A stretch of 38,824 bases of DNA from Methanomicrobia archaeon (lineage in GTDB: Archaea; Methanobacteriota_B; Thermococci; Methanofastidiosales; NM3): assembly GCA_030603445.1 (NCBI GenBank), contig JAUVXU010000015.1:1-38824 (forward strand), written 5' to 3'. Position 1 is the stretch's first letter. Each line of letters opens with the position of its first letter. The position numbers were made by a program, and so were the translations under genes. The notes below the pieces were generated by a model. That model ran no database searches and was not told where the DNA came from. It saw nothing but the letters and a program-made list of their open reading frames with translations. Positions 5,848 to 37,175 of the stretch are shown here, one piece after another.

Positions 5848-5979
5848 GTAATCTTATGTTAGCAATTATAACTTTATTAACGTATCTGAAAGTTATGAAG
5901 TAGAAATGAACACTTTATATTCTTATCTAAAAAAGCCAAGAAATGTCAAAAAAAGAGAATAAAAAGTAGAGACATATAT

Positions 5980-6522
5980 CTATTCTGTTAATTTAATACG
6001 TGTCCACTTTTCTTTTGCCTCAAAGTTTCCAACAGGGGTATGAATCGTTACAAATATCGTGCCATATTCTGCATCACTTGCTATTGTTGTGATATCATCA
6101 AATAAAACTTTTATACCTCCACTAAAGAATATATTACCATCTTTCCAATTATCGATTGTGCCTGTGCCACTATAAACTAAACGTGGATCAACGCTTTGAT
6201 AGTTAATATCATAATCAGACGTATAAATTTTTATATCAACGTTAAGTGTTATGTCGTCCCATTTTACTGTTTCATCGTTTGCATCCCTCAAAGCAGGATA
6301 AATTATTATCCCATCATCTTCGGCATCAGCATCCCAACTATCTGTACGTGACATGACATCTGCGTATGTTACTGTATCAAACTGATTCGTGGGTGCTGTT
6401 GTTGTTGGAGCAGAAGTTGTGCCTGCTGCTGTTGTTGCTTCGCTACCTCCTTCCCCGGTGCATCCAGCAAAAAATGGCAATAACAAAACAATAAATACAA
6501 GGACTAATATCTTCTTATTAAT
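5980..6522 (-). CDS. Secreted lipoprotein of unknown function, probable ATT start
   Basis: About 180 residues. The frame encodes a classic lipoprotein signal: NKK, a hydrophobic run of Leu/Val/Ile/Phe, then FFAGC with the cysteine to be lipidated, followed by a Thr/Ala/Ser-rich linker (residues about 25-50). The only ordinary starts in frame, such as TTG at 6486, would cut off most of the signal peptide. ATT at 6522 lies just after GGGGTGAT and restores it, so ATT appears to be the start; a frameshift or base error is the alternative. The mature part is rich in Asp and beta-type segments and resembles no family I recognise. It is probably displayed on the outer face of the membrane. Confidence 0.65.
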   Translation of the reverse strand: MNKKILVLVFIVLLLPFFAGCTGEGGSEATTAAGTTSAPTTTAPTNQFDTVTYADVMSRTDSWDADAEDDGIIIYPALRDANDETVKWDDITLNVDIKIYTSDYDINYQSVDPRLVYSGTGTIDNWKDGNIFFSGGIKVLFDDITTIASDAEYGTIFVTIHTPVGNFEAKEKWTRIKLTE

Positions 6523-25894: not shown

Positions 25895-25975
25895 TTAGTC
25901 GCCCCAGTATAGGCCGCGCATTAGTATTGGAAAGATCCAAAACAGACCTAGTATTACAATATCTTTCTTACCCAT
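25895..25975 (-). CDS. 26-residue membrane microprotein, second tandem copy
   Basis: A complete 26-residue peptide that starts GKKDIVILG after Met, continues with a hydrophobic stretch (LFWIFPILM) and ends RGLYWGD. It is almost the same as the peptide encoded 2 bases upstream. Between the copies there are four synonymous codon changes and one amino-acid change (Gly for Ser at position 2), the pattern expected when protein sequence is under selection. One membrane helix with a charged N-terminus and an Arg near its end is predicted. No family recognised. It lies about 0.7 kb from the end of the Hdr operon on the same strand. Confidence 0.7.
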   Translation of the reverse strand: MGKKDIVILGLFWIFPILMRGLYWGD

Positions 25976-25977
25976 TC

Positions 25978-26058
25978 TTAGTCACCCCAGTATAGACCAC
26001 GCATTAGTATTGGAAAAATCCAAAACAGACCTAGTATTACAATATCTTTCTTACTCAT
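25978..26058 (-). CDS. 26-residue membrane microprotein, first tandem copy
   Basis: Same peptide as the next copy with Ser at position 2. AGGTG at 26064-26068 stands at correct distance from the ATG, and a TATATAAA box at 26092-26099 is about 35 bases up, so the pair has its own promoter. The stop codon is followed by only two bases and the next ATG, so both are translated from one message. The hydrophobic core with two Trp, one Arg and a terminal Gly-Asp suggests a single-span peptide, perhaps a subunit or regulator of a membrane complex. No function is known to me. Confidence 0.72.
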   Translation of the reverse strand: MSKKDIVILGLFWIFPILMRGLYWGD

Positions 26059-26091
26059 AGATACACCTATCCAAATATATAAAGATATTGG

Positions 26092-26099
26092 TATATAAA
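26092..26099 (-). promoter_or_regulatory. TATA box of the microprotein pair
   Basis: Reads TTTATATA on the minus strand, 34-41 bases before the ATG at 26058, with a good ribosome binding site in between. A second AT-rich element (26075-26084) lies too close to the gene to be the main box. Confidence 0.5.
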
Positions 26100-26179
26100 T
26101 GTTGTGGTATTATAATACCCTTATAATAACATAAGATACAATCTATGTGTTATCCAAAAAGAAAGAAATATGATAAAGA

Positions 26180-26296
26180 TCACTCTATATCACAATGTTC
26201 ACAGTACCACTCTTTCTGGTGGTTCCACTGATTTATATAATACTTCATTTCATTGCCACAATTAGGGCACATCATTTTCTCTAGCGTTTCCGCCAT
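26180..26296 (-). CDS. 38-residue zinc-ribbon protein
   Basis: A complete small gene with GGGAGGGAT, a very strong ribosome binding site, just before the ATG. The peptide has MMCPNCGNEMKYY near the start and WYCEHCD at the end, giving two CxxC pairs 20 residues apart, a standard zinc ribbon. The two knuckles are joined by YYINQWNHQKEW. Such free zinc ribbons are common in Archaea and often bind nucleic acid or a partner protein. The role is unknown. It is upstream of the microprotein pair on the same strand, separated by 121 bases with a promoter. Confidence 0.72.
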   Translation of the reverse strand: MAETLEKMMCPNCGNEMKYYINQWNHQKEWYCEHCDIE

Positions 26297-26607: not shown

Positions 26608-27489
26608 TTATTCTTTGGATCTCTTTGCTTTCTTGATCTTCTTCTCAAGATCACGTGTCGAGACCATATGTGTATGCATTGCCAGATGCTTCGGTCTGAC
26701 ACCAAATGCCAGCCCAATAAGCTCGCTCAAATGCAGGATAGGAATCTTGTATTTTTTCAGTTTTGCCTGGCCCTGATCAAGCTGCAGATGACAAAATGGG
26801 CAAATATTAAGCATGCAGTCAACATTTGCCTCCTCTACATTTCCCAGCTTCTCATCAAGTATCTTTAGTGAAACATCCTCTGCACCACTCCAAACGCCTC
26901 CGCCAGCACCGCAACAAGAAAGCTTATTCTTGAAATCAACACTCTCGCAACCTAAAGCCTCAACTATATCTTCGACAATATGTGGTGCTTCAGGATTTAA
27001 ATCTGGATGTTTAGCGGAAGGGCGCAAATAGTGGCACCCATAGTGAATAGCAACTCGCAAACCAAGATCAAGCTCCTTATTTTCCTTCAATTTATCTAAG
27101 GACTCGTGAAGAATATCGGCAAAGTGGTATACTTCAGTATTGCCATCGTATGAAAGACCAATCTTACCCAGCATCTCATTAACAAATTCCTGATTTTCCT
27201 TGCTCTTCTTAAACATCTCATTAGCTTCCCACAGCGAACCATAGCAACCGTTGCAAATAGTAAGAACATCCACATCGTCCTGACTAGCCATGACTATGTT
27301 GCGCACGCCAAGTGTCATATGAGTATTTCGGTCATATCCCCTAAATACTCCTGGAGCAGGGCAGCACGAGTACTTGTGGTCAAGCAACTCTATACCAATT
27401 TTATCAAACACTATGCGCGTTGATTTCTCTATTGAAGGATACATGTTCTTTGAGATGCAGCCAGGGAAAAGCGAATACTTGTTCTTCAT
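26608..27489 (-). CDS. hdrB: Heterodisulfide reductase subunit B-like (HdrB)
   Basis: 293 residues, the usual length. HdrB holds two non-cubane [4Fe-4S] clusters that cleave the CoM-S-S-CoB disulfide or a related substrate. Both cysteine-rich CCG domains are intact: C11, C42-C43, C79 and C82 (FPGC, SCCPAPG, CNGC) and C152, C192-C193, C230 and C233 (YGC, SCCGAGGG, CPFC). The C-terminal tail after residue 265 is Lys/Arg-rich and longer than needed. It starts directly after hdrC (no gap) and is the last gene of the operon. Other CCG-domain substrates are possible because the operon encodes more than one such protein. Confidence 0.92.
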   Translation of the reverse strand: MKNKYSLFPGCISKNMYPSIEKSTRIVFDKIGIELLDHKYSCCPAPGVFRGYDRNTHMTLGVRNIVMASQDDVDVLTICNGCYGSLWEANEMFKKSKENQEFVNEMLGKIGLSYDGNTEVYHFADILHESLDKLKENKELDLGLRVAIHYGCHYLRPSAKHPDLNPEAPHIVEDIVEALGCESVDFKNKLSCCGAGGGVWSGAEDVSLKILDEKLGNVEEANVDCMLNICPFCHLQLDQGQAKLKKYKIPILHLSELIGLAFGVRPKHLAMHTHMVSTRDLEKKIKKAKRSKE

Positions 27490-28002
27490 TTATTGCTCAC
27501 CATCCTTATTCTCTACAAGCTTAAGAATTCCCAGTTCATCAATTAGCTTCGTGAAATCCTTAAGGTATTTCTCGTCATGCGCCAAATCATCGGGTCTTAT
27601 CGGAAGGCCTATGATGGATCTGATCTTCTCAACCTCTGGGCTAAGAGGAAATCCATCGCCCTTATCACGGAGTGATTTGATAGCCGTAACATGCAGCGGG
27701 GGAAAATTATGGTCTCCTTTCCTGACAGCCCGATTTCTAAGGTATATAACTGCTTCTGTTGTATCAACACCTTTTGGACAACGCTCTTGGCAGTTGTAAC
27801 AAGTAGTACAATACCAAAGAGAAGGATCATCCTTTAGATCTACGCCATCCTGAGCCAGGTGGATAAGTTCCCGTATTCTTATTCTAGACTGCCTGCCTGC
27901 AGGACAGCCTGCAGTGCATTTTCCACATTGTACGCAGCTTAGGATTTTACTATCTTCTAATATTTTCTTGAACTGCTCTATCTCATATGGGTCTTCGCTC
28001 AT
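27490..28002 (-). CDS. hdrC: Heterodisulfide reductase subunit C-like (HdrC)
   Basis: 170 residues, typical. Two [4Fe-4S] sites are visible: C23-x2-C26-x2-C29-x3-C33 and C65-x2-C68-x2-C71-x3-C75. HdrC passes electrons from HdrA to the active site in HdrB. It overlaps the preceding HdrD-like gene by four bases (ATGA) and adjoins hdrB, so translation is coupled on both sides. No membrane segment is present, so this is the soluble HdrABC type, not the membrane HdrDE type. Confidence 0.92.
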   Translation of the reverse strand: MSEDPYEIEQFKKILEDSKILSCVQCGKCTAGCPAGRQSRIRIRELIHLAQDGVDLKDDPSLWYCTTCYNCQERCPKGVDTTEAVIYLRNRAVRKGDHNFPPLHVTAIKSLRDKGDGFPLSPEVEKIRSIIGLPIRPDDLAHDEKYLKDFTKLIDELGILKLVENKDGEQ

Positions 28003-29972
28003 TCTTCCACCCCCATGGACTCCATGAGAAGATTTAGGATATCTACAACAGGTATGTGATCTGAATTGTCCCCTAGATTAAGCTCACAAAATGGACATGC
28101 TGAAACCACCATATCTGCACCTTTCTCTTGAGCCTCTTCCATCTTCTTCTTTGCAAGGTTATTGGCCATGTCTGGTTTGGCTGACTTTACGCCACCGCCA
28201 GCACCGCAACACTGTGCCTGTTCTTTTTCCTTATCAAAAGTTATAAGTTCAATCCCTGGGACTGTCTCGATAATCTCTCTCGGGATATCGTAGTATCCAA
28301 ACTTCCTTCCAAGATGGCAGGGATCATGGTACATGACCTTCTTCTTAACAGCTTTTAGTGGAAGTTTTTCAATATGTTCTTTTACAATATCCGTTATATG
28401 CAGTATATTAAGGCCTTCATAATCCTTCTTAAGCGTTGCATAGCAGCCGGAGCAAGAACAAACAACTGGTCTGTCTTTGAGAATCTCTGTGTTCTTTTTG
28501 ATTAGCTCTGATAAGTCATGCCCTGTTCTCTTCATAACAGAACCACAGCACACAAGCCCTTCAGGAATTTCCCATTCAATGCCCAACATATCGAGAATCT
28601 TTGTAGTCGCATTAAACACATCATCTCTCCTATATAAAGCGACACAGCCTGGGTAGTAGATGTACTTCGCCTTGGGATTTGGCTTTGACTTGGATTCCTT
28701 CTCGGCAAACACATTGCCAGTTTTTGCTATAGCTTTCGCAATCTTTTCATGTTTCTCTGGACCAAGACCCATATTTACAAGTTCCTTTCGGAACTCTTCC
28801 ATCAAACCTGAAGTGTCATGATGGGTCTTACATACCTCTGTGCAGTTCTTGCATGTAGTACAAAGGAATGCCTGCTCCAGAAGGTCGTCGTCTATATACT
28901 TTGTAACATCCTTCTTAATTTCAAGGGGTTCAAGGAATTTTCCTGCAGATTCTGGAATGTCATAATCCTTCTCCTCCTTGAATGGGTCATAAACGCCCAG
29001 CGCATATCCTACCACTTGGTCAAATCCAAGTATCTTGATGTCGTCTAGTGCCTTTGCATCCTCATTGTCCAACTCAAAGTGTATACAATCGAGATGTATG
29101 GAACATTTGGTGCATGCAGTAACCAAGTATTCTGCGCCAGATGCCTTTGCTTCCTCAAGGCGTGCCCTTCGCACGTCGCGCGAGTATCTATTACAGTTAA
29201 GCCACGCTGAAACTGAGCAGCATATAGCATCTTCGCGGACATTTTCCATCTCCCTAAAGTCAGAAGCCTTTGCTAGAACCTCTCGTGGAGCGTCATATAT
29301 TTCATTGTAACGGCCATACCTGCATGGATCATGGTATGTGGTCTTCAGATCCTTTTTGACAAATTCAGGATTTTGTTGTTGAACAAATTCAAGGAAAGAT
29401 ACAACATCCAAGCCGTATATGTTCTTGAACATATGGTAGCCTTCGGCACAGCTAACAACGATCTTCTTTCCCTTAAGCTTCTTCATCATCTCTTCTTTTA
29501 ATACCTCAAATTCATCAAGAGCACCAGAGAAGTAGATATCATGCCCGCAGCACCCATAGACTATTTCTGGCTTGAAACCTAGTTTGTTAAGAGAGAGTAC
29601 AGCGGCCTTCGCATTGCCGCTGTAGTTGGTATCTCTTTGAAGCAATGTATCAAAGAGGGCCGCACATCCGGGGAAATAAACAATGTCATTCCCTTCTTCA
29701 ACACCTTTTAGCCACCCTTGTGTCTCGGCCATGCCAGAGAGTTTGGACGCTAATCTAAACACGTCGCGATGAGAACCCTTTATTTCTCCTTTTTCATCTT
29801 TTATGTAGCGTGCGATACGCACCACTTTCTCCAAATTAAGCTCCGTAGGACACGTTGATGCACAGAGTTTGCATGTTGCACACTCCGCAGTATCCCCAAT
29901 CTCACAGCTGCCCTGTAGCTTAGTCTCTGTTACTTCCTTGGCTTCAGTCTTCTTGATCTTATCTACTGACAT
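27999..29972 (-). CDS. Tandem HdrD-like protein with four CCG half-sites
   Basis: 657 residues, about twice a normal HdrCB unit. The first half has a ferredoxin-type CATCKLCASTCP, then CCG domains with FPGCAA, YGCCGHD, YHDPCRYG, AICCSVSAW and ACTKC. The second half repeats this: CTTCKNCTEVC, YPGCVAL, VCCGSV, CSGC, YHDPCHLG, QCCGAGGG and CPFC. In the first half, one domain reads CCS in place of CCG, so one cluster site may be altered. Each half carries only one clear ferredoxin-like motif, not two. The protein would hold several non-cubane clusters and could reduce a disulfide or hold electrons between partners. It overlaps the previous gene by 10 bases. Confidence 0.85.
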   Translation of the reverse strand: MSVDKIKKTEAKEVTETKLQGSCEIGDTAECATCKLCASTCPTELNLEKVVRIARYIKDEKGEIKGSHRDVFRLASKLSGMAETQGWLKGVEEGNDIVYFPGCAALFDTLLQRDTNYSGNAKAAVLSLNKLGFKPEIVYGCCGHDIYFSGALDEFEVLKEEMMKKLKGKKIVVSCAEGYHMFKNIYGLDVVSFLEFVQQQNPEFVKKDLKTTYHDPCRYGRYNEIYDAPREVLAKASDFREMENVREDAICCSVSAWLNCNRYSRDVRRARLEEAKASGAEYLVTACTKCSIHLDCIHFELDNEDAKALDDIKILGFDQVVGYALGVYDPFKEEKDYDIPESAGKFLEPLEIKKDVTKYIDDDLLEQAFLCTTCKNCTEVCKTHHDTSGLMEEFRKELVNMGLGPEKHEKIAKAIAKTGNVFAEKESKSKPNPKAKYIYYPGCVALYRRDDVFNATTKILDMLGIEWEIPEGLVCCGSVMKRTGHDLSELIKKNTEILKDRPVVCSCSGCYATLKKDYEGLNILHITDIVKEHIEKLPLKAVKKKVMYHDPCHLGRKFGYYDIPREIIETVPGIELITFDKEKEQAQCCGAGGGVKSAKPDMANNLAKKKMEEAQEKGADMVVSACPFCELNLGDNSDHIPVVDILNLLMESMGVEE

Positions 29973-32242
29973 ATTTCCACCATCCTCTTAGCAGCTGCTA
30001 CAAACTTGGGACCTTCTGCCGAAGACATATTGAAAAGATTGAGTTTATGTCCTCCAACACCCATTATATCGAGAGATTTCTTAGCAAGAGCTACTTTCTC
30101 CTTTGCCTGAAGGTTGCCATCTATATAGTGACATTGCCCCTCAAGGCATGCGGCTAAAAATACGCCTTTTGCGCCTTTATAGAATGGATATAGCATATGT
30201 TGCATCGTCACACGACCAGAACAAGGCACTCTAATTACCTTTATCTTTGGGCTTATCTTTGCCTTTGCCGTACCTGCTAGATCGGCCGCATTATAACCAC
30301 ACTGGTAGCATGAGAAGGCAATTATGCTATCTCTATCCGAAGCAAGAATACCATCAATCTGTCTTGTTATCTGATCCTCTGTATAGAGCGACAGATCTAT
30401 AGCACCAGTTGGGCATGTAACAGAACATTTACCGCAAGACTGACAAGACACATCAAGTACCTTGTAGAACTCGCCGGTGGTCTCTATAGCATCGTAGACG
30501 CAGTTATCTGCACATGTACCACATTTGATACACACTTCTGGATTGATTTTAGATGTAACAAGCTCTATCTCTATCTCCGGGTCTTTTAGGAATGTTGCAA
30601 TCCTTGAAGCAACCATCCCTGCATCAGTTATACATTCTTGAATAGGTTTTGGAGATTCTGACGTGCCTGCTATATAAATACCCTTATTTGCAGTGTCAAC
30701 AGGGGCTATCTTGACGTGCACCGGTGCAAGGAAGTTGTCTGCACCAGACACAAGATGTATAATAGTCCCCATATCACGAGTACCTTGAGAAGGTATCAGG
30801 CCAGTTGAAAGAACTACTAAATCCGCCTTTATCGCCTTTGGTTCGTTGGCAAAAGTATCCTCTACTCTAACAATAAGATCCTCGCCGTCAGGGACTATTT
30901 CTGACACGTTGCCGCGCAAATATTTTATGCCCATCTCACGTGCCGTATCGAAAAACTCTTCATAACCCCTTCCAGCAGTTCGCATGTCAATATAACACAG
31001 TGTAATATCCATCTCGGGATTCTCAGCTTTTATGAGTCGCGCATTCTTAGTAGCATACATGCAACATATCTTTGAACAATATACATTGTGCCTCCTGTCA
31101 CGCGACCCTGCACACTGGACAAACAACAGGTGCTTTGGCTTCTTCCCGTCCGAAGGTCTTAATATCTCACCTTCAGTTGGTCCTGATGGGACTTTAAGAC
31201 GCTCAAGCTGCAGCCCAGTTATGACATTTGGATGCTCCAGGTGGTACTCTGTGTTGGAAAGATCCACAAGATCGTACCCAGTTGCAACGACAATTGCACC
31301 CACTGTGAGTTTGAACTCGCGTGGTTCATCATCATACATTATCGCACCAGCCTTGCAAACGTTCTCACAAGTACCACATCGTATACATGAATCACGCTCT
31401 ATCCTGTTCTTAAGAGGCACTGCCTGAGCCATTGGTTTGTAAATTGCGGCCCTTAGGCCCATTTCAAGATCCCATTCGCTCCAGACCTCTACAGGACAAT
31501 GTGTCGTGCATTCCCCGCAAGCAGTGCATTTTGTCTCATCGACGTAACGTGGTTTCTTTACAACCGTGGCAATATACTCGCCAGCTCTGCCCTTTACCTC
31601 GGTAACCTCCGAGAGGGAGAATATGTCTATGAGAGGATTCATAGCAACATCTGCTAGCAGTGGTGAACCAGTACACATTGCACAATCGTCAGTTGGGAAA
31701 ATCCTATCGAATCTGACCATATTTCCTCCTATGGTCTCTTTCTTTTCCACCATATTCACATGAAATCCCTTATCGGATAACTCAAGAGAAGCATGCATTC
31801 CAGCAATGCCTCCACCAATTATCAAAACGTCCTTTGTAACAGAGACTTTTGTTGTACCAATGTCTGTAAGCAGTTTTGCTTTTTCAATAGCACCATTGAT
31901 GATTGCCTTGGCCTTCTCTGTTGCCTCCTCTTTGTTTGGGGTAACCCATGCACACTGTTCCCTTATGTTCGCAAACTCCCATTTGAATTGATTCATCTTC
32001 TCGCCTATACATGCCTGGAAGATGCCTCCATGATGTTTAGGGGAACATGATGCAATAACAACGGAATCTAGGTTCAATTCTTCTATCTTCTCTTTGATTA
32101 GATTCTGACCAATCTCAGAGCATAAAAACATAGTATCAAATGCGATAACGCCTTCTTTTTTATTGAAGTACTCAGTCAGTTCGGGGACATGTACATATCC
32201 ACCGATATTGTTACCGCAAAAGCAAATGAAAACTCCAATCAT
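29963..32242 (-). CDS. HdrA-MvhD fusion (QmoB-like flavin electron-transfer subunit)
   Basis: 759 residues, close to QmoB of sulfate reducers. An N-terminal HdrA domain (FICFCGNNIGGY) is followed by an FAD site GGGIAG at residues 143-148, the HdrA-type Cys region DDCAMCTGSP at 185-193, ferredoxin sites at C239-C249 and C286-C296, and two more near 570-625 (CIKCGTCADNC, CQSCGKCSVTC). Residues about 640-759 are an MvhD domain with AFSCYQCGY, CSGRV and CLEGQCHY, which binds a [2Fe-2S] cluster. HdrA is the bifurcating flavin subunit in methanogens. The fusion lets electrons pass from MvhD to FAD in one chain. It overlaps the previous gene by four bases. Confidence 0.9.
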   Translation of the reverse strand: MIGVFICFCGNNIGGYVHVPELTEYFNKKEGVIAFDTMFLCSEIGQNLIKEKIEELNLDSVVIASCSPKHHGGIFQACIGEKMNQFKWEFANIREQCAWVTPNKEEATEKAKAIINGAIEKAKLLTDIGTTKVSVTKDVLIIGGGIAGMHASLELSDKGFHVNMVEKKETIGGNMVRFDRIFPTDDCAMCTGSPLLADVAMNPLIDIFSLSEVTEVKGRAGEYIATVVKKPRYVDETKCTACGECTTHCPVEVWSEWDLEMGLRAAIYKPMAQAVPLKNRIERDSCIRCGTCENVCKAGAIMYDDEPREFKLTVGAIVVATGYDLVDLSNTEYHLEHPNVITGLQLERLKVPSGPTEGEILRPSDGKKPKHLLFVQCAGSRDRRHNVYCSKICCMYATKNARLIKAENPEMDITLCYIDMRTAGRGYEEFFDTAREMGIKYLRGNVSEIVPDGEDLIVRVEDTFANEPKAIKADLVVLSTGLIPSQGTRDMGTIIHLVSGADNFLAPVHVKIAPVDTANKGIYIAGTSESPKPIQECITDAGMVASRIATFLKDPEIEIELVTSKINPEVCIKCGTCADNCVYDAIETTGEFYKVLDVSCQSCGKCSVTCPTGAIDLSLYTEDQITRQIDGILASDRDSIIAFSCYQCGYNAADLAGTAKAKISPKIKVIRVPCSGRVTMQHMLYPFYKGAKGVFLAACLEGQCHYIDGNLQAKEKVALAKKSLDIMGVGGHKLNLFNMSSAEGPKFVAAAKRMVEICQ

Positions 32243-33399
32243 AACTCAATCGCCTCCGCAACAAGTTCCATTACATCCTTCATTTCAAGTTTTGAATCTT
32301 TTTGTTTGATGCCATCAAGCAGGTTCTGGTAACAAAATGAACATGCACTAGTGATGACTTTGGCACCTGTCTCTTCTGCCTGCTCAAGACGATTTGAAGC
32401 CAGTTCTGTTGCACGGTCCGGATAAGCGGTCTTTGCACCGCCACCAGCACCACAGCACCATGAATTCTCCTTGATGAACTTCATTTCCTTAAACTCCAGG
32501 CCAGGTATTGCCTTAAGCACCTCACGAGGAGATTCATAAATCTTACAATGCTTCCCAAGATGGCATGGATCATGGTAAGTCACAATCCTATCGACATTCT
32601 TGTCAAGCTTCAATGTTCCGTCCTTGATAAGCTGCTCAACATACTCTACCGCATGCATAAGCGTTGGTTTGACCTCCCCTACGCTTTTGTATGCATTCTT
32701 GAATGTGTTGAGGCAACCTGGACAAGAGAACAGGACTATCTCAGCACCAGAGTTATTTACATCCTCGATGTTGCGCTTTGCAAGATTTTCAAAAATGTCC
32801 GGGTGCCCAATACCTCGTACTGTACCTCCGCAGCATTTCTCTTCTTTTCCCAATACTCCGATATCCACGCCAGCCTTCTTGAGCACATTTATGACACTTT
32901 TTGTCATTCCCCATAACCTGGAATCGAAAGTAGCTGTGCAACCAACATAGTACAACACTTTTGCCGGATCTTTATTTACGTCCTTAACATCGAGTTTTTT
33001 GTACCATTTTCTTCGGGCAGAACGGGGTTGCAGCCACGGATTATCGTAACTAAGCAGACTTTTTACAAGCGTATCGTGCTTTTTGTTCTCATGCCCTGCT
33101 TTTACAGCCTCTGCACGAAGCCTAAGTATTGATGATAAAGGATCAACTTCCCACGGGCAAAGTATCTTGCAGGTAGAGCATGTAGTACAGTTCCAAATCT
33201 CATCTGAATTAAAGATCCTGTCCTTTAGGCCAAGCTGTGCCATACGCATAAGCTTCCTGACCCTGTACTGAGAGACTATTCCTGCAGGACATCGGGCCGT
33301 GCAGGTACCACACTGGAAACACTTCTGGAAGTTGTCAGTAAGATCTTCTGCAAGCTTCTTTGAGAACTCCAAATCCATCTCTTTTTCTTTGATGGTCAT
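32239..33399 (-). CDS. hdrD: HdrD-like protein (HdrC-HdrB fusion)
   Basis: 386 residues, near the normal size of HdrD. Two N-terminal [4Fe-4S] motifs, C27-C30-C33-C37 and CTTCSTCKILCP near 72, are followed by two complete CCG domains: YVGC, KCCGG and SCPGC, then YHDPCHLG, WCCGAGGG and SACSFC. HdrD unites the roles of HdrC and HdrB and is the catalytic subunit in membrane HdrDE, but no HdrE-type cytochrome gene is nearby. It begins one base after the MvhD gene and ends inside the start of the HdrA-MvhD gene. The substrate could be CoM-S-S-CoB or another disulfide. Confidence 0.9.
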   Translation of the reverse strand: MTIKEKEMDLEFSKKLAEDLTDNFQKCFQCGTCTARCPAGIVSQYRVRKLMRMAQLGLKDRIFNSDEIWNCTTCSTCKILCPWEVDPLSSILRLRAEAVKAGHENKKHDTLVKSLLSYDNPWLQPRSARRKWYKKLDVKDVNKDPAKVLYYVGCTATFDSRLWGMTKSVINVLKKAGVDIGVLGKEEKCCGGTVRGIGHPDIFENLAKRNIEDVNNSGAEIVLFSCPGCLNTFKNAYKSVGEVKPTLMHAVEYVEQLIKDGTLKLDKNVDRIVTYHDPCHLGKHCKIYESPREVLKAIPGLEFKEMKFIKENSWCCGAGGGAKTAYPDRATELASNRLEQAEETGAKVITSACSFCYQNLLDGIKQKDSKLEMKDVMELVAEAIEL

Positions 33400-33400
33400 T

Positions 33401-34147
33401 TTAGTCCCTCCTCTGATATATCATATAATTATCCTTTTCTCCTGCTGTTTCTAGCACAAGTTTCTGAGTGAGGGATAATATGTGTCTCCACAATCGCAAC
33501 TTGTCTATGCCTGTGGCTTCTGAGATTTCAGGGACTGTCATAGATTTGTTTTTATCGACTGCCTCCATAATCTTCATGCGCTCGATCTCCTCTTTTGCTA
33601 TGTCGTGCATTGCCTGAACATATCGTTCTTCCTCTATTTCTCCCTCCTCAAAAGCACGTTTTGTTGAACCAAGCACTATCCTGAGCCTCGAGCCTTCAAT
33701 CGCACCTTTCAAGAGTTTGAGTTTTTGTTGATACTCTTCTGGAAGAGGGCCTAATTCTCTGATTTTATCAGTAAAGTCGTTGACCACTTGGGCGAATCTT
33801 TCTCCTTCTGATGCAGATACCCATTCTATCATTAGCCTATTCTCGTCCAATCCAAGATCCTTGAATAGGTCTTTCATTAGATCCATTCGCCTTTTAGTCT
33901 CGTAATTACCGCTAATGTAGTGGCAATCCCCAAAATGGCATCCTAGTATGCATACACCATCAGCACCATTTTGCAGTGCTTCGATCATGAAAGTAGGTTC
34001 CACCCTACCTGAGCACATCACACGTATGAGGCGCATATTGGGCGCATACTGTATACGTGAGGTACCGGCAAGGTCGGCGCCAGCATAGGAACACCAATTG
34101 CACGTGAAAGCAATGATATTAGGTTCAAATTTTTCTTCTTCTGCCAT
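33401..34147 (-). CDS. mvhD: MvhD-type [2Fe-2S] protein with C-terminal winged-helix domain
   Basis: 248 residues from ATG 34147, which has GGGGGTG seven bases before it; the frame runs 11 codons further up into hdrA but this is the better start. Residues about 8-130 are a full MvhD domain: FTCNWCSYAGADLAG, MCSGRVEP and LGCHFGDCHYISGNY. MvhD links hydrogenase or dehydrogenase to HdrA. The extra 110 residues include a helical linker rich in Glu/Arg and a helix-turn-helix-like end (MTVPEISEATGIDKLRLWRHI). No MvhA or MvhG hydrogenase gene is in the window. The tail may serve as a protein contact rather than DNA binding. Confidence 0.88.
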   Translation of the reverse strand: MAEEEKFEPNIIAFTCNWCSYAGADLAGTSRIQYAPNMRLIRVMCSGRVEPTFMIEALQNGADGVCILGCHFGDCHYISGNYETKRRMDLMKDLFKDLGLDENRLMIEWVSASEGERFAQVVNDFTDKIRELGPLPEEYQQKLKLLKGAIEGSRLRIVLGSTKRAFEEGEIEEERYVQAMHDIAKEEIERMKIMEAVDKNKSMTVPEISEATGIDKLRLWRHILSLTQKLVLETAGEKDNYMIYQRRD

Positions 34148-34148
34148 T

Positions 34149-37100
34149 TTAAGCACCCCCTGCCTTATCAATAACAGCACGTATCTGTTCTGTTATCTGA
34201 TTGTCAGTGTAGTGTGGCATTTTAATCGCAAACTGTGGACATGCTGAAGCGCATGTACCGCACCCTTTGCACAATGCCTTGTTGGACTGTGACTTCCCAT
34301 CGTCGATTATCATCGCGCCGTAAGGGCACAAACTAACACAAATTCCGCACCCGATGCACTTCTCCTCATCAACATCGCTTACGATTGCATCGCCCTTTAC
34401 TTTCTTCTGGAAGATTGGCACTGCTGCACGCGATGCTGCCCCAACTGCTTGGGCTACTGTATCTGCAACACCCTTGGGTGAATGGGCGCTACCACAGACA
34501 TACACACCATCTGTTGCAAAATCAAGAGGCCTTATTTTTGCATGCGCTTCTAAAAAGAATCCTCCTACCTTTGACATCGGGACCTTTAGCATAGATGCTA
34601 TATCCTCGGACTTGTGGCCCTCTGTCGGTGTTGTGAGTACGAGAAGATCTGGTTCGAATTCGATATCTTCGCCAAGAAGCATGTCATGCACTGTTAGTGT
34701 CACTTTGTCACCGTCAACAGTTACTCTTGGTTTATCTGCCTTTTCATATCGCAGGAACTTGACGCCATGATTTTCCTGGACGTCGACATAGTATTCCTCC
34801 TCTCCCTTGCCAAATGAACGCATATCTCTAAATAGGATAAAAATATTAGTATCTGGAGCTAGCTTACTTACTGCCTTGGCATTTCGTAGCATAGTGCCAC
34901 ATCCTACCCTACAACAGTATGTACGTCCTGTATCCTCTCTGGATCCTGCACAAGACACCATGAGTATTTCTTTTGTACCTTTTGGCAGTTTACCGTTCTT
35001 TAGCATCTCCTCTAGCTCAAGTTGTGTGATTATCTTCTTTGATTTTCCGTATTCGTAGATCCCTGTAGGGTCTATCTCCTCGCTACCAGTTGCAACAATT
35101 ATGGTGCCTATCTTTAGTTTCTTATCTTTGCCCTTGAATGATACTTCATAGTTACCGATATATCCAGAAATGTCTTCTAATTCTGAATTTAGCATGACTT
35201 TTATCTTTTTTTGTGCGTTAACAAGCTTCACCGTTTCGTCTACAAGCTTACCGGCATCGATATCACTTGGGTATAGTGTCGTGAGTCTGTTAAGGATCCC
35301 GCCAAGTTTATCTGTCTTCTCAACTAGGTATACCTTGATTCCTGCCTCTGCAAGAGCAATAGCAGAGTTCATACCTGCGATGCCGCCGCCAATTACCAAA
35401 GTACTGCCCTCAACATCTATCTCGCCTTGTCCTAATGCTTCAAGTAATCTAGACTTAGCAACGGACATGCGGACTAGTTCTTTTGCCTTTTTGGTTGCAG
35501 CAACTTCATCATGTGAATGCACCCATGTACACTGATTTCGGATGTTTGCCATATCAAAAAGATATTTGTTAATGCCGACCTCTCTAATCGTATCTTGGAA
35601 CAGGCCTTCGTGTGTGCGAGGTGTGCAAGCAGCAACTACAACGCGGTTTAAGTTCTTTTCCTTGATAGCTGTTTTAATCTTTAATTGGGCATCTTGAGAA
35701 CATGCAAACATAAGCGTATCAGAATGTTCCACATTTGGAAGAGAAAGTGAATATTTCGCTAAATCATCCACATCCATGTACCCTGCGATGTTCTTACCAC
35801 ACTTGCATACAAATACGCCAATGCGTGGTTCGTCATCAGAAGATATTATTATCTCTTCTATCTCCTTTTTTGGCTTAATTTCTGGTTTAGGTAATATGTC
35901 CATTACCCGTGCAGAAGCTCCAGATGCCTGTGCAACAGAATCCGGGATATCCTTTGGTGCTTGTGAGCAGCCAGCAAGGAATACGCCAGACCGTGACGAT
36001 TCCATCGGAGCAGAAACAATTTCGGTCTCACGGAAGAAACCATTTTCATCAATATCTACACCAAGTACTTCTGCAAGTGCCTTGTTTGAAGCAGCCGGAA
36101 GTATTGCCGATGAGAGTACAAGAAGACCTACGGTCTCTTGCTTAATATCGCCAGTATATGTATCTTCATAACGAAGAGTTATATCTCCATTTTCCTCCTC
36201 AAATGCCTCAGCAGGCCTTCCCCTGATATAATTAACGCCTATCTCGCCTGCCTTATTATAATACTCTTCAAATTCTTTTCCATACGCTCTTAGGTCCATG
36301 TAAAATATGTATGGTTCAATAGTTGGGTTGTGTTCCCTTGTAACCAATGCCTCTTTAGTTGCATACATGCAACAAACACGTGAACAATATGGATTTCCAA
36401 GCCTATTACTTCGCGAACCGACGCACTGTATCCACCCTATCTTTTTCGGTTCCTTTTCATCAAACGGTCGCTTTATGTGTCCTCGAGTCGGTCCTGAAGC
36501 TGACATTAAACGCTCATACTGGATTGCAGTAATTACGTTTTTGTACTTTCCATAACCATACTCTGTCCTCATATCAGGTTCTAGTACATCGTAGCCTGTA
36601 GCAACAATCACTGCTCCAACATTTACTTCTTCGATCACTTCTTGTTGCTCAAAGTCTATGGCATCTGCAAGACAAAACTTTACACAGTTGCCACAGATAC
36701 CTTTTGTAAAATGTAAACACTTGTCTTTATCAATAGTTGCAATTAATGGTGATGCCTGTTCAAAAGGTATGTATATTGCTCTACGTTTTCCCATTCCATG
36801 ATCAAACTCACTATCTACCTTGCTAGGGCATTTCTCCAGACAAGTACCACATCCTGTACACTTGTCTTCAATAACGTATCTTGGTTTCTTTAGTATTTTG
36901 GCCTTGAAATTACCCACCTTTCCATCGAGGCCTACGACTTCCGAATATGAATATAATTTTATATTAGGATGTCGTGACGTCTCTACCATCTTTGGAGCCA
37001 ATGTGCACATAGAACAGTCATTAGTTGGAAATGTCTTGTCCAACTTTGCCATTGCCCCGCCAATAGAAGGTGATTTTTCGACAAGATACACACTAAAGCC

Positions 37101-37175
37101 CTTGTCAGCAAGATCCAGTGATGCTTGAATGCCGGTTATTCCAGCCCCAATAACTAATACACTGCTTTCCTTCAT
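34149..37175 (-). CDS. hdrA: Tandem HdrA-like flavoprotein (1008 aa)
   Basis: First gene of the operon. The first half has the FAD loop GAGITG (residues 10-15), the HdrA cysteine region NDCSMCTLAPKM (C54, C57) and ferredoxin motifs CTGCGTCLEKC and CGNCVKFC. From about residue 452 a second HdrA begins with GVFVCKCGKNIAGY; its FAD loop GGGIAG is near 597, but the cysteine pair after it is missing (LTTLYPSDIDAG). The end has two ferredoxin sites, CIGCGICVSLC and CKGCGTCASAC, near 940-980. So there are two flavins, only one with the full HdrA site. AGGTG before the ATG and the TATA box at 37237-37249 support the start. It probably splits or joins electron pairs between MvhD, HdrD and ferredoxin. 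Confidence 0.92.
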   Translation of the reverse strand: MKESSVLVIGAGITGIQASLDLADKGFSVYLVEKSPSIGGAMAKLDKTFPTNDCSMCTLAPKMVETSRHPNIKLYSYSEVVGLDGKVGNFKAKILKKPRYVIEDKCTGCGTCLEKCPSKVDSEFDHGMGKRRAIYIPFEQASPLIATIDKDKCLHFTKGICGNCVKFCLADAIDFEQQEVIEEVNVGAVIVATGYDVLEPDMRTEYGYGKYKNVITAIQYERLMSASGPTRGHIKRPFDEKEPKKIGWIQCVGSRSNRLGNPYCSRVCCMYATKEALVTREHNPTIEPYIFYMDLRAYGKEFEEYYNKAGEIGVNYIRGRPAEAFEEENGDITLRYEDTYTGDIKQETVGLLVLSSAILPAASNKALAEVLGVDIDENGFFRETEIVSAPMESSRSGVFLAGCSQAPKDIPDSVAQASGASARVMDILPKPEIKPKKEIEEIIISSDDEPRIGVFVCKCGKNIAGYMDVDDLAKYSLSLPNVEHSDTLMFACSQDAQLKIKTAIKEKNLNRVVVAACTPRTHEGLFQDTIREVGINKYLFDMANIRNQCTWVHSHDEVAATKKAKELVRMSVAKSRLLEALGQGEIDVEGSTLVIGGGIAGMNSAIALAEAGIKVYLVEKTDKLGGILNRLTTLYPSDIDAGKLVDETVKLVNAQKKIKVMLNSELEDISGYIGNYEVSFKGKDKKLKIGTIIVATGSEEIDPTGIYEYGKSKKIITQLELEEMLKNGKLPKGTKEILMVSCAGSREDTGRTYCCRVGCGTMLRNAKAVSKLAPDTNIFILFRDMRSFGKGEEEYYVDVQENHGVKFLRYEKADKPRVTVDGDKVTLTVHDMLLGEDIEFEPDLLVLTTPTEGHKSEDIASMLKVPMSKVGGFFLEAHAKIRPLDFATDGVYVCGSAHSPKGVADTVAQAVGAASRAAVPIFQKKVKGDAIVSDVDEEKCIGCGICVSLCPYGAMIIDDGKSQSNKALCKGCGTCASACPQFAIKMPHYTDNQITEQIRAVIDKAGGA

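Follow-up and report, generated by a model that had tools for sequence, protein, structure and literature searches.

Two tandem 26-codon genes on the minus strand of an archaeal contig are confirmed, by comparison with their copies, as being under purifying selection at the protein level. The contig, hereafter the window, spans 38,824 bp and is C7 of a genome labelled G000, which is 1.62 Mb in size and 96% complete. The genes belong to a family that also contains longer secreted proteins and that shares the hexapeptide GLYWGD. The family probably acts at the cell surface. It is tentatively proposed, at somewhat less than an even chance, that its members are lineage-restricted, co-regulated surface peptides in which GLYWGD is an envelope-docking motif; short forms would carry it tethered to the membrane, long forms as two heads.

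The two adjacent frames (Table 1) are exactly as the preliminary description of this DNA had them: both lie on the minus strand and they differ at one residue (S/G at codon 2) and by synonymous changes at codons 14, 20, 21 and 25. The start codon of gene 2 is found 2 nt past the stop of gene 1. That description also placed a ribosome binding site and a TATA box ahead of the genes, which is correct for gene 1, but gene 2 has no such pair of its own, only a GGTGA within the codons of gene 1 that probably serves as a Shine-Dalgarno sequence for coupled translation. A GGTG-type Shine-Dalgarno sequence precedes the family members whose upstream sequence was inspected.

Table 1. Positions of the gene pair and its signals in the window, and of a further gene preceded by the operator
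Feature	Position	Strand	Basis or remark
Microprotein gene 1, 26 aa, MSKKDIVILGLFWIFPILMRGLYWGD	25978..26058	-	ORF
Microprotein gene 2, 26 aa, MGKKDIVILGLFWIFPILMRGLYWGD	25895..25975	-	ORF
GLYWGD motif codons, gene 1	25981..25998	-	pattern search
GLYWGD motif codons, gene 2	25898..25915	-	pattern search
GGTGA in last (Gly-Asp) codons of gene 1	25982..25986	-	read from sequence
Shine-Dalgarno AGGTG, gene 1	26064..26068	-	read from sequence
TATA box TTTATATA	26092..26099	-	read from sequence; 6 bp downstream of operator
Palindromic operator GGTATTATAATACC, GGTAN6TACC family	26106..26119	.	first base 61 bp upstream of gene 1 start codon
Small membrane protein with GGTATNNNNATACC upstream	L063 1185-1439 (G000:C24); also G001:C17, G003:C178, G004:C14	- (L063)	

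For the window pair alone, the probability that at least four of five changes are synonymous by chance is 0.009, so the earlier claim of strong evidence for coding was overstated on that basis; it stands once the other copies are added. A whole-genome search of G000 found five further tandem copies with 83 bp per unit (G000:C5:7722-8134, L006), and the sister species G001 has two copies of the 26-aa gene on contig C12, giving gene 1 a family of seven copies in G000 and two in G001. Four independent pairs show 22 synonymous and 5 non-synonymous changes (P about 5e-11), which supports the selection at the protein level that had been claimed. The variable columns of the seven G000 copies are distributed 6/1/15 over the three codon positions, and the dN/dS of gene 1 is 0.03-0.11 against copies of its own genome, where computable. 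The protein of gene 2 recurs without change in copies 2 and 4 of the C5 array, whose genes differ from it by 5 and 8 synonymous changes and no others. The 2-nt gene spacing is also kept throughout the array. Every other reading frame has internal stops in the copies, and among the relatives checked for frames broken while DNA similarity persists none was found; the frame is either kept or the gene is cleanly absent. Because of the extra copies in both species, the ratio of substitutions and the stops in other frames, the 26-aa frames can be considered established as real coding genes, as far as comparative genomics reaches.

The 83-bp units could also be read as a repeated RNA or DNA element in which the frames are incidental. 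Such an element is hardly conceivable given the bias to third codon positions, the stops in the other frames, the protein-level homologs at other loci and of other lengths, and the lack of an RNA family match (an Rfam scan of the window gave no match except a tRNA). Neither the 26-aa nor the 89-aa form described below matched a family in Pfam (E<=0.01), PHROGs, NCBIfam or PADLOC (E<=0.1), in line with the earlier remark that genes this short are usually missed.

Conservation in the peptides is highest in the C-terminal hexapeptide. Of 18 occurrences, 17 read exactly GLYWGD and one GFYWGD, a count that leaves out three further one-mismatch matches and that comes from the five family genomes, partly incomplete, on which the whole comparison is based. 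The motif is retained while the flanking sequence diverges. Homologs of greater length were found on G001:C14 (89 aa, secreted, MNKRSLLVFGLFWALLVPIVSAGAVACDGLYWGDSI...ITSGLYWGD, with the motif just after the signal peptide and again at the C-terminus), G003:C129 (72 and 86 aa, the first read from a TTG start) and G004:C25 (82 aa, ending in GFYWGD), and G002 has a C-terminal long-form fragment at a contig end. Three full two-motif forms are built up by MxxxxxxVxGxFW, a stretch of small residues resembling a signal peptidase site, GLYWGDS, a variable linker and a terminal GLYWGD. AlphaFold2 predicts a confident helix at residues 3-33 of the long form and disorder after residue 36. The N-terminal helices (MxKKxxxVxGxFW) are homologous between long and short forms. 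The short forms are hydrophobic, as expected of the membrane peptides first described, and they should be uncleaved signal anchors because they keep the start of the long forms without the cleavage-like stretch.

On G004:C2 a large secreted surface protein has one further GLYWGD in its linker. The sequence of this protein lacks its start, and Pfam returned no match for it. Its syntenic counterparts on G000:C45 and G001:C2 have CWB2-like domains and no motif, with the same membrane winged-helix gene adjacent. The pairing of a secreted CWB2-like surface protein with a membrane-anchored winged-helix (DUF7343) protein is conserved (L128, L129 and L045), accompanied by a histidine kinase in G000 and G001, and this neighbourhood is possibly a surface-sensing system.

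Long and short forms occupy the same chromosomal sites. The first site has the order HdrB, a zinc-ribbon microprotein, a variable gene and a sodium/anion symporter (permease); the variable gene is the 26-aa pair in G000 and the 89-aa secreted form in G001, and in G002 the long-form fragment adjoins the symporter. At the second site, downstream of a transaldolase, G001 carries a 26-aa pair, G003 two long forms and G004 the 82-aa form, and in G000 the gene is cleanly absent. Since the gene differs in length between genomes at both sites, the long and short forms replace one another. The simplest reading is that shortening occurred twice, because long forms are found in other genera and in two of the three genomes of the pair's own genus at the first site. 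In the C5 array the five genes encode two peptide types in the order B-A-B-A-B, which suggests that an A-B pair was duplicated and perhaps that the two peptide types interact.

The zinc-ribbon microprotein of the first site (38 aa, CPNCGNEM...WYCEHCDIE; window 26180-26296, minus strand) lies between the pair and HdrB. It is syntenic in G001 as a 42-aa protein (L025 about 5940-6070, plus strand) and has only weak profile matches, to HVO_2142 and Zn_ribbon types, below the cut-offs. It is a weak relative of the Haloferax zinc-finger microproteins of the HVO_2753 type, which resemble the GLYWGD peptides in being conserved archaeal microproteins but differ from them in that the peptides have no zinc site.

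The pair does adjoin a genuine Hdr operon (HdrA, HdrB and others), as had been stated, and the neighbourhood is conserved in G001. The suggestion drawn from this location, that the peptides are small subunits of a membrane complex with the neighbouring heterodisulfide reductase, is not supported. It is very improbable because most of the loci (G000:C5, G001:C12 and those in G003 and G004) are away from Hdr and because an 89-aa secreted protein takes the Hdr-adjacent site in the sister species. The pair is furthermore equipped with an operator and a TATA box of its own, GLYWGD turns up in the large secreted surface protein as well, and conserved genetic linkage to hdr genes was not found. The Hdr-type cluster itself (window 26608-37175, minus strand) encodes HdrB, an HdrA of 759 aa, HdrC/TfrB-like and VhuD-like proteins, and another HdrA-like protein (1008 aa) in which three stretches match HdrA.

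The family is small and appears to be restricted to the NM3/Nuwarchaeales lineage among the genomes scanned. Of 115 genomes of the phylum, only the five family genomes have exact GLYWGD followed by a stop; the single other match, in Thermococcus, was out of frame and due to chance. A profile search of the order with the long form gave nothing beyond the family members. A DNA pattern for GLYWGD-stop, which needs a G at the second position of the codon before the motif and thereby covers part of the possible contexts, was run against 84,980 species genomes and gave only chance matches outside NM3-lineage contigs. It matched 25 contigs, of which four were real (three NM3-lineage genomes) and 21 were chance or out-of-frame; a single viral match was likewise rejected as chance. 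The family NM3 (Nuwarchaeales) consists of methyl-dependent hydrogenotrophic methanogens within Methanofastidiosales (PMC9635834).

The family genes share an operator. The exact palindrome GGTAN6TACC is present in six of seven family promoters compared with 4 of 234 background ORF upstreams (P = 2e-10), a background that includes some regions overlapping the family promoters. The seventh promoter, of the first G003 gene, has the palindrome with one mismatch. In four promoters the first base of the operator is at about -58 to -61 with the TATA box of Table 1 6 bp downstream, the spacing seen for the window pair being repeated in G001:C14, G003:C129 and G004:C25. The short-form arrays G000:C5 and G001:C12 have the operator at -83 and share an identical site, GGTACACATATACC. 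A site just upstream of BRE/TATA suits an activator. The stricter pattern GGTATNNNNATACC gave 13 sites in the five genomes and its reversed-pattern control 11. It was rejected as a genome-wide regulon marker since this total is not clearly above the control, so only sites conserved at orthologous promoters were used: four of the 13 are family promoters and four precede an orthologous small membrane protein.

That small membrane protein (84-95 aa, no known family) is encoded beside a YcaO in four genomes. The YcaO was considered as a peptide modifier and dismissed, as it is the McrA-thioamidation YcaO (TIGR03266). The DUF7343 membrane regulator was likewise set aside as cognate regulator; G000, G001 and G004 have one clear full-length relative each, and nothing ties it to the operator. 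On G001:C15 (L116 6296-7372) the operator GGTATTGTGATACC precedes the gene for a 358-aa secreted repeat protein, possibly a further member of the regulon, and the gene that follows looks by eye like a bactofilin plus membrane helices.

With regard to function, the hydrophobic N-terminus starting with KK, the probable signal peptide of the long form and the motif at both ends of a disordered chain point to display outside the cell, and this together with the gene for an S-layer protein (TIGR01564, PF05124) adjoining the C5 array is why an envelope-docking motif is favoured. The short protein would insert as a single N-in/C-out signal-anchor helix, leaving its tail (R)GLYWGD exposed on the outer side. 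The long form, with its homologous and probably cleavable signal peptide, would be a short, probably disordered secreted chain with GLYWGD at both ends, so that it would constitute a two-headed version of the same ligand. GLYWGD would then be the functional part, a short linear motif docking on an envelope partner, an S-layer or S-layer-associated protein, which the short form might tether to the membrane while the long form might bridge two partners. Tandem copies would raise the dose, and the operator upstream of BRE/TATA would switch the family genes together with the other conserved small membrane protein.

Docking is consistent with the purifying selection, the retention of the motif between diverging flanks, the exchange of long and short forms at two sites, the shared operator and the GLYWGD-bearing linker of a secreted protein whose syntenic counterparts have CWB2-like domains. 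On the other hand, the hydrophobic run of the short form extends over about 14-15 residues, little for a full transmembrane helix if the arginine does not snorkel, and the neighbouring S-layer gene is a single locus in one genome. Archaeal S-layer and surface proteins (TIGR01564/PF05124; CWB2, PF04122) share the probable cell-surface location of the family, are encoded next to the C5 array and, in the case of the CWB2 type, have one motif-bearing protein standing in their place. The GLYWGD peptides differ in having no S-layer or CWB2 domain (PF05124/TIGR01564 was not found in them by Pfam or NCBIfam), and the association is only suggested.

The main rival to docking is a peptide signal, a reading we consider unlikely. 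A membrane protease would cut a hydrophobic leader away from (R)GLYWGD, or from a C-terminal peptide of slightly greater length, a sensor or importer would read it, and the long forms would be two-copy precursors. The short forms are K-rich hydrophobic precursors with a conserved C-terminal peptide, as judged from sequences and alignment, and thus have the architecture of the streptococcal SHP precursors of the SHP/Rgg systems (20-26 aa, K-rich start, hydrophobic core and conserved short C-terminal segment). The strict conservation of the hexapeptide and the tandem copies fit a signal, the members in G000:C5 and G004:C25 have histidine kinase genes nearby, and the DUF7343 protein lies beside the motif-bearing surface protein of G004. 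However, the surroundings of the genes yielded neither an Rgg-like receptor nor a peptide importer or dedicated protease. The scan for Rgg/RRNPP receptor domains, negative among the neighbouring ORFs scanned, covered part of the neighbours, and a receptor could be encoded elsewhere. Unlike SHP, the archaeal family has the motif also in secreted proteins of 72-89 aa, right after the signal-peptide cleavage site, and in the linker of a large surface protein, and the kinase/DUF7343 neighbourhood is kept where the surface protein has no motif. Marginally less probable still is the fuller version, an archaeal peptide signalling system whose mature part is GLYWGD. Its precursors would be the short proteins, encoded in many copies, and the long ones with two copies of the motif; the system would have a palindromic operator for its regulon, and the sensor would be either membrane-anchored or of the two-component type.

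Tandem genes for small hydrophobic peptides are also typical of type I toxins (Ibs, Ldr) and phenol-soluble modulins, and the C5 array has an integrase gene about 4 kb upstream of it. It is nevertheless improbable that the genes amplified in tandem encode a type I-like toxin or a secreted peptide with antimicrobial or membrane activity, because no immunity or antitoxin gene was recognised, there was no antisense RNA or family match (Rfam, PADLOC or PHROG), the tail is strictly conserved and polar-ended, and the two-headed long forms have long unstructured linkers. The region upstream of the array (L006 2637-3464 and 3665-6040) encodes a phage-type integrase and a large PAS/GAF histidine kinase.

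The family shows that comparative genomics alone can prove tandem 26-codon genes, absent from family libraries, to be coding. It is an unusual case in which long secreted and short membrane forms interchange at shared chromosomal sites, and in which one six-residue tail is common to membrane microproteins, two-headed secreted peptides and one surface protein. The tail and one operator together define a small regulon of what are probably surface components in the NM3/Nuwarchaeales methanogens.
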